From an uncultured beta proteobacterium (lineage in GTDB: Bacteria; Pseudomonadota; Gammaproteobacteria; Burkholderiales; Burkholderiaceae_A): DNA of 64,000 bases. Position 1 is the first letter of the stretch. Every line of letters starts with the position of its first letter. The stretch is from the NCBI GenBank assembly GCA_902586195.1, contig CACIGF010000001.1, positions 186,001 to 250,000 on the forward strand, given 5' to 3'. Made by a program: the position numbers and the translations under genes. The notes under the pieces were generated by a model. The model saw only the letters and a list, made by a program, of their open reading frames with translations, was not told the origin of the DNA and did no database searches. Shown here one piece after another: positions 36,527 to 38,869 of this stretch.

Positions 36527-38869
36527 ATGGATAGAAGGTCCCTCCCTGAGTTCACGTTTGATATGTATCCGGACGACGCCGAAAGGATAGAGTTTCTTAG
36601 GCGAACTCTCACGGATTTTTACCGATCAAAAGGCTACCTGTTAGTTACTCCATCGTTAATAGAGTTTATTAAATCTCTGCAACTAAGCGAAAACGAAAAA
36701 TTTGACTCTCGGATTTTTTCTACTTTTGATCCACTCTCGGGCGAACTTTTAGGGATTCGACCTGATATTACCCCCCAAATTGCAAGGATGGATAATGTGT
36801 TGCAAACTAAAACAGAGATGCCTTCAGTTTCTAGGTATTGTTATGGTGGTTTAGTTTTACATTCAACACCGGATGGTTTGTACTCTTCAAGGGAACAATT
36901 TCAACTTGGGTGCGAGATTTTTGGCGCAGATAGTGTTGAATACGATATTGAGGTACAGTTAATCGCGTTACAGTCTCTAAAGCTTGTAAATATAAATAGT
37001 GGCACCATTAATATTACCCACCGGGGAATATTTTTAGGTTTGTGCGAATATGATATTTCACTCGCAGAAAATCAGAAATTAGTAATTGATTTGTTAAGAA
37101 GTAAAAATGTTACTGGTCTTAAAAAATTATCACATTTAGTTAAGGAAAAGACACTCGAATCATTAGTTGTGCTATCGCAGTTGTATGGATGCTTAGGTAG
37201 CGAGTCCGACATATTTGATCGGGCCCGTGAAACCTTACCTAAAACCAAATTGATAGAAGAGTCTATTGCCGAGCTGTCATACTTCTTAAAGAGTGTGAAA
37301 TCAAATCAGAAATTTTTAGAAAGTCCAGATTGGGATATTTTTATAGACCTCGCTGATTTGGATGGATACCATTACCACACAGGCATTATGTTTTCTCTAT
37401 ACACGAGTGCATGGCATGAAGCTATTGTTCGTGGAGGAAGGTACGAAAAAGTCAAAACCATAACTGGTGACTCAAGGCCGGCAGTCGGTTTTAGTTTTGA
37501 CGTCAAGAAACTAAATAATTTTAAAAGTAAAAAATCATTTACTACTTACAGAAAGGAATCCAGTAGTAATCTGTTTAATAAAGTTACAAACGAGAATACT
37601 CTTGTTGTGGTAGGGACTCAGTGGGGTGATGAGGGCAAAGGCAAGGTTGTTGATTTATTGACTGAAAACGTTGATGCTGTGATCAGGTTTCAGGGTGGTC
37701 ATAATGCTGGTCATACCCTGGTAGTTGAAGGTGAACGTGTAGTTCTAAGCTTGATTCCTTCAGGCGTCCTGCATGAGCATGTTGATTGCTACATTGGCAA
37801 TGGTGTTGTTTTGTCCCTAAAAGATTTGATCAATGAAATCAAGTCGCTTGAAAAACTTGGTTTCAAAGTAATAGATAAGCTTAAGATTAGTTCGTCCTGC
37901 CCCTTAGTGCTTCCGACTCATGTCCTAATCGATTGCGCTAATGAGGAAAATATGGGAAGTGAGAAGATTGGAACAACGAAACGAGGGATAGGCCCTGCGT
38001 ATGAGGATAAAATCGCCAGGAGAGGATTAAAACTATCTGATCTCGGGAATATGGACCATTTTCGAGGAAAACTGGAAGGTTTGATGTCACGTCATAAACT
38101 TATTTTGAAGCATGTTTATGGTTGTAAAGTAAACGAAAGTGATTTTAATGTTGATGCTGTGTGTTCAGAGTTTGAAAATTATTCGAAATATTTATCTAGT
38201 ATCTCTGGAGACATTGGCAAAGAATTACACCAGGGCCTTCTACAAGGTAGAAAATTTTTGTTTGAAGGTGCCCAGGGAACTTTATTGGATATAGACCATG
38301 GAACTTATCCGTTTGTGACCAGTAGCAATTGTGTCGCAGGTGCAGCGGCAGCGGGCTCCGGAATCGGCCCAAAATTTTTTAATGATGTGTTAGGAATAGC
38401 CAAGGCTTACGTAACTCGTGTCGGGGAGGGCCCACTACCGACCGAAATCATGTCCGAATTAGGAAGTAAAATTGCTGATAGAGGTGCCGAATTTGGCTCT
38501 GTAACTGGACGGCCGAGGAGAATTGGTTGGTTTGATTGTGTCGCTATGAAAAAGTCAATTGAGGTTAATGGAATTTCCAGACTCTGCGTTACAAAATTAG
38601 ATGTGTTGGACGATTTAGAAGAAGTATTTTTCTGTGTAAGATATGAAAAGGGGGACAAGTTTAGTTCTGTTTTCGGTAGTACAGAGAGATACAAGCCCGT
38701 CTATGAGCAAATTAAGGGCTGGAAATGTTCAACGAAAGACGTTACGTGCTGGGATTCATTACCAAAAAATGCACAGCACTATTTAAATCGATTAGCTTCG
38801 GTACTCGAAACACCGATCCCTATGATTTCAACAGGACCTGAGAGAGATAGTATTATTTGTAGGTTCTAG
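36527..38869 (+). CDS. hisZ-purA: HisZ-PurA fusion: ATP-PRT regulatory subunit plus adenylosuccinate synthase
   Basis: A single 780-residue frame joins two normally separate proteins. Residues 1 to about 345 are HisZ, the HisS-like regulatory subunit of short-form ATP phosphoribosyltransferase ([56 protein letters not shown]). A linker of about 12-20 residues ([12 protein letters not shown]) leads into PurA from residue 357 ([22 protein letters not shown]), complete to STGPERD near the end with GGHNAGHT and the GTP/IMP motifs kept. No ATG, GTG or TTG lies in frame in the linker, so a separate PurA start is not evident. Elsewhere the genes are adjacent. Confidence 0.9.

Follow-up and report, generated by a model that had tools for sequence, protein, structure and literature searches.

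The window analyzed here, a 64,000-nucleotide stretch of DNA from an uncultured beta proteobacterium, contains a reading frame in which hisZ continues into purA, raising the questions of whether the frame is genuine, whether one chain is made from it and what such a chain would do. The frame extends without interruption from an ATG start to a TAG stop at positions 36527-38869 of the plus strand (780 codons), at the coordinates given in the initial annotation, and is open in seven genomes of the genus. Pfam placed the class II HisRS-like core of HisZ (tRNA-synt_His, PF13393, the HisZ/HisRS core) at residues 11-329 (36557-37513, plus strand) with an E value of 2e-77 and without a C-terminal domain, and a complete PurA (adenylosuccinate synthase) domain at residues 360-777 (37604-38857, plus strand), where the full Adenylsucc_synt profile (PF00709) was matched with an E value of 2.8e-162. 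The two are joined by a linker at residues 333-357 (37523-37597, plus strand). The local gene order is hflX-hflK-hflC-(hisZ-purA)-rnr-rlmB, with the hfl genes upstream at 33064-36498 and rnr (RNase R) and rlmB downstream at 39029-41863, all on the plus strand. Since the end of hflC lies 28 bases ahead of the fused gene, hflX, hflK, hflC and the fusion probably form one operon. A tRNA-Leu (cag) gene is located on the minus strand (38908-38992) between the fused gene and rnr.

The gene was detected in seven genomes of the genus, each time as a stop-free fusion, and the six other fusions have 94, 93, 83, 66, 52 and 50% protein identity to that of the window. Four of the carriers are public contigs from separate assemblies (SGYQ01000001, CACOBT010000005, JAOINB010000004 and NYVY01000045), and the public assemblies with the fusion are MED-G174, AH-287-N17, AH-736-P17 and CPC29. 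Although the window derives from a fragmented and incomplete genome (1.13 Mb, 70.7% complete), removal of a stop by an assembly or sequencing error is hardly conceivable: the relatives refute it, since seven genomes share the stop-free fusion at identities as low as 50%. Two of the outcomes named in the initial annotation as fatal to the fusion, a sequencing error and separate frames in relatives, are disposed of, the first by the seven genomes and the second because the relatives with separate frames all lie outside the genus. The eighth genome of the genus (86% complete) had no match to either the HisZ or the PurA part. No second copy of hisZ or purA was detected in the source genome at its 70.7% completeness, and the six other fusion genomes (76-92% complete) contained the fusion only, with no separate hisZ or purA.

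Outside the genus the genes are adjacent, as had been claimed for relatives, and separate. In the two sister genera a stop is present between hisZ and purA in 14 of 14 genomes with both on one contig. No other stop-free fusion was found among 26 genomes of the family, and no other stop-free single-frame match either among the matches listed from 399 genomes of the order or in a survey of 274 genomes of the class; the order and class surveys sought single-frame matches, and long-linker fusions would be listed there as two entries. Wider fusions in Burkholderiales, suggested by open frames of over 820 amino acids, were rejected, every checked locus having a stop between hisZ and purA. In a tree built from concatenated HisZ and PurA the fused genus forms one clade with a support of 100, and one fusion event is needed. 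Separate adjacent genes in relatives and one frame in a monophyletic group are the pattern of a fusion of operon neighbours. The fusion is real, old and fixed in this genus of Burkholderiales with small genomes.

The first half was assigned to HisZ by NCBIfam with 290.7 bits for PRK12292.1-1 compared with 91.5 bits for hisS. The score is under the full-length cut-off of 350, as expected because the C-terminal domain is missing. The half has the HisRS-like core fold without the tRNA-binding domain, the character by which HisZ is recognized, and a separate HisS-like frame of 434 amino acids is encoded elsewhere in the source genome. Alignment to the structures 8oy0 and 5m8h extends over their residues ∼3-323 only, and no residues past the core correspond to the C-terminal domain of the Acinetobacter and Psychrobacter proteins, a variable feature that does not define HisZ. 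The domain is likewise absent from HisZ of L. lactis and T. maritima (PMC10795190). Short-form HisG and HisZ assemble into a hetero-octamer built around a HisZ tetramer (PMC10795190). The HisG of the source genome is of the short form (a frame of 222 amino acids, a protein of 221), and HisG frames of 213-234 amino acids are present in 8 of 8 genomes of the genus. In one relative (G016:C6:10580-11046) HisG is split over two overlapping frames of 206 and 82 amino acids, either a frameshift or a sequencing error.

The absence of the C-terminal domain, together with changes in the exact HisZ motifs checked in the two deepest members of the genus (G002 and G007), could be read as the mark of a vestigial leader of PurA that no longer serves HisG. 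That reading is highly unlikely in view of the substitution pattern and of the partner. The dN/dS ratio of HisZ in close pairs with unsaturated sites is ∼0.04-0.06, indicating strong purifying selection and lying under the ∼0.08-0.10 of PurA in such pairs; HisZ identity is 88-97% where that of HisG is 86-94%; and short-form HisG is found throughout the genus with no other HisZ found to serve it. The four closest fused genomes, G000, G006, G001 and G003 (loci L001 and L009-L011), show stronger conservation of HisZ than of PurA, opposite to the sister genera and unlike deeper members. The ratio of differences in HisZ relative to PurA is 0.4-0.7 in these four and ∼1.2 in deeper members, the two sister genera having values of ∼2 and 1.4, and the controls at the HisG and HisD positions track PurA in this rate comparison.

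The second half was assigned to PurA with 568 bits against an NCBIfam cut-off of 402, and contains the complete domain with the signature motifs, including TGRxRR and KLD. It was aligned to PDB entries 1ade, 3ue9 and 6bs7, with a best E value of 4.6e-141. The signature motifs are conserved across the genus, one exact motif being altered in G007. Each of the eight genomes of the genus also encodes HisB, PurB and PurH. Both halves of the fusion look functional from their sequences.

The junction bears on whether the two halves are made as one chain. In the fusion of the window the in-frame ATG codons closest to the PurA GTQWGD motif are 75 codons away on its upstream side and 113 on its downstream side, and no ATG is present within 75 codons on either side of this motif in any of the seven fused genomes. 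Close to the junction a single in-frame ATG, GTG or TTG codon is present, the GTG of codon 361 (37607); it lies inside the first strand of PurA, has no Shine-Dalgarno match and is not conserved across the genus. The claim that no start lies between the halves is upheld. In G007 neither GTG nor TTG occurs near the junction, from codon -34 to +19. An internal PurA start was sought in the seven genomes by scanning ATG, GTG and TTG codons, near-cognates and Shine-Dalgarno matches, and was rejected, none being conserved. An internal promoter was rejected as well, promoter-like sites being no commoner than in shuffled sequences, with none immediately before the PurA part.

The linker is 25 residues long in all seven genomes and has no conserved start codon, while its sequence is poorly conserved and nearly unalignable among deep members. 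Its dN/dS ratio in close pairs is ∼0.18-0.36, indicating weaker constraint than in HisZ or PurA. In the codons of the linker a stop arises from about 5% of the possible single-base changes, and changes summed over the genus subtree of the tree come to ∼2.4 per site, so that, as a rough estimate, several stops would be expected in the linker if the frame were unconstrained. Release of separate HisZ and PurA chains, by non-standard internal initiation or by proteolysis in the linker, is distinctly unlikely. A variable, polar linker would make cleavage possible, and a GTG or TTG does occur close to the junction in some fused genomes, at positions that are not conserved. Against this, the seven genomes contain no ATG, conserved GTG or TTG, or conserved Shine-Dalgarno sequence at the junction, and the frame has been kept open at a fixed length even though internal initiation would make stops harmless. 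From these features we infer that the product is a single uncleaved chain in the cell.

Genomes outside the genus suggest how the genes may have come to be joined. Most HisZ proteins of these groups continue ∼60-80 residues beyond the core, and the purA start lies from a few to ∼100 bases downstream of hisZ; in the fused genus the C-terminal domain of HisZ is missing and the 25-residue linker leads into PurA. Genome G014 shows an unfused, precursor-like state in which HisZ ends 2 residues past the core with a TAA stop, followed after 12 bases by the ATG of purA in the same frame. Because G014 clusters with members of its own genus on the tree, its loss of the domain is independent of that in the fused genus. 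Short unfused HisZ is also encoded in G026, G411, G307, G278, G250, G388, G380 and G299, and outside the order in G553 and G586. The combination of a short HisZ with a close in-frame purA was seen at L015 (G014), L016 (G026), L052-L058, L072 and L075, in several Burkholderiales families and in two genomes from outside the order, with merely three bases between the HisZ stop and the purA ATG at L057/L058 and L075. Loss of the C-terminal domain looks recurrent, as the trait requires at least five changes on the tree, and the arrangement of a short HisZ with purA close behind in the same frame could plausibly have been a step on the way to fusion. No intermediate state was seen inside the fused genus. 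PurA of the sister genera has N-terminal extensions of ∼10-19 residues (g2 and g3: L018, L020-L024, L026, L031-L032 and L038-L041), indicating that the PurA N-terminus tolerates additions. In the ancestor of the genus, hisZ would have shed a dispensable C-terminal domain, leaving a short spacer with purA in frame downstream, and the stop and the purA start would then have been lost. The origin by loss of a stop put forward in the initial annotation is supported, the missing HisZ C-terminal domain adding a second loss.

The genus-fixed fusion very probably encodes a bifunctional chain in working order, by which PurA is attached to the HisG-HisZ complex. The product would be a single chain of ∼87 kDa. 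Its HisZ core would remain an activator of short-form HisG, presumably within a HisG4-HisZ4 octamer, and its PurA half, presumably dimeric, would still convert IMP to adenylosuccinate. The ATP phosphoribosyltransferase octamer would then be decorated by four PurA domains at a 1:1 stoichiometry, each occupying the place of the missing HisZ C-terminal domain. A structure predicted with AlphaFold2 from 7 sequences had a mean pLDDT of 46.9 and was discarded as too poor.

Histidine and AMP synthesis are linked through ATP, AICAR and AMP, and regulatory coupling of the two by the fusion, as proposed in the initial annotation, is plausible. Such coupling would add to, and not deny, the bifunctional chain: either PurA would respond to the histidine or purine nucleotide state sensed by HisG and HisZ, or IMP converted locally towards AMP and ATP would aid the recycling of the AICAR given off in histidine synthesis. 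In its favor, AMP inhibits the E. coli HisG with a Ki of 2.15 mM and AICAR is the stronger inhibitor, with a Ki of 0.65 mM, and a strategy that improved histidine production included overexpression of purH and purA (PMC5852967). The genus has both PurH and PurB, and the fusion has been retained over deep divergence with a linker of constant length. On the other side, the substrate of PurA is IMP, two PurH steps past AICAR, and PurH lies outside the fusion; the poorly conserved linker gives no hint of a fixed interface; the genes stay separate in relatives beyond the genus; and no sequence feature demonstrates allosteric cross-talk. Coupling as the reason the fusion is kept is possible but rather unlikely. 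Doubtful to a somewhat greater degree is the fuller proposal that HisG joins HisZ-PurA in a common assembly whose two enzymes both respond to histidine and purine nucleotide signals, with PurA replacing the lost HisZ domain; such an assembly, if real, would place a physical point of control where histidine and AMP synthesis meet. A neutral join of operon neighbours would account for the data as well as pathway coordination does: a fusion would be tolerated by a HisZ that can do without its C-terminal domain and a PurA whose N-terminus can be extended. A fusion fixed in one genus, with an unfused precursor in relatives, offers a clean test of new regulation versus neutral joins in compact operons.

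No publication on a fusion of hisZ with purA was found in the openly accessible literature, in agreement with the initial annotation, to which no described case was known; automatic database entries may exist. Each half has well-known counterparts. The HisZ core can be aligned over its whole length (6-329) with short-form HisZ from Lactococcus lactis (1z7m), Psychrobacter arcticus (5m8h) and Acinetobacter baumannii (8oy0), shares conserved motifs such as YHYHTG and is accompanied by a short HisG in the genome. It differs from the proteobacterial HisZ structures in lacking the C-terminal domain, as do the L. lactis and T. maritima proteins, and in running on into PurA. The PurA half has the same full-length catalytic domain and all signature motifs of the E. 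coli enzyme (1ade) and of the closest solved structures (6bs7 and 3ue9), whereas it lacks a start codon at its N-terminus, which is connected to HisZ. Fusions within the histidine pathway have been discussed, namely hisNB, hisIE, hisHF and the eukaryotic HIS4 and HIS7 (PMC8305728), and the present fusion resembles them in that neighbouring genes have merged into one bi- or multifunctional gene. As far as the literature search shows, HisZ-PurA combines the domains of two well-known proteins in a way not described before. The known histidine fusions unite enzymes of one pathway, whereas HisZ-PurA unites a regulatory subunit of histidine synthesis with an enzyme of AMP synthesis, such that the regulator of entry into the histidine pathway is physically tied to the committed enzyme of AMP formation.
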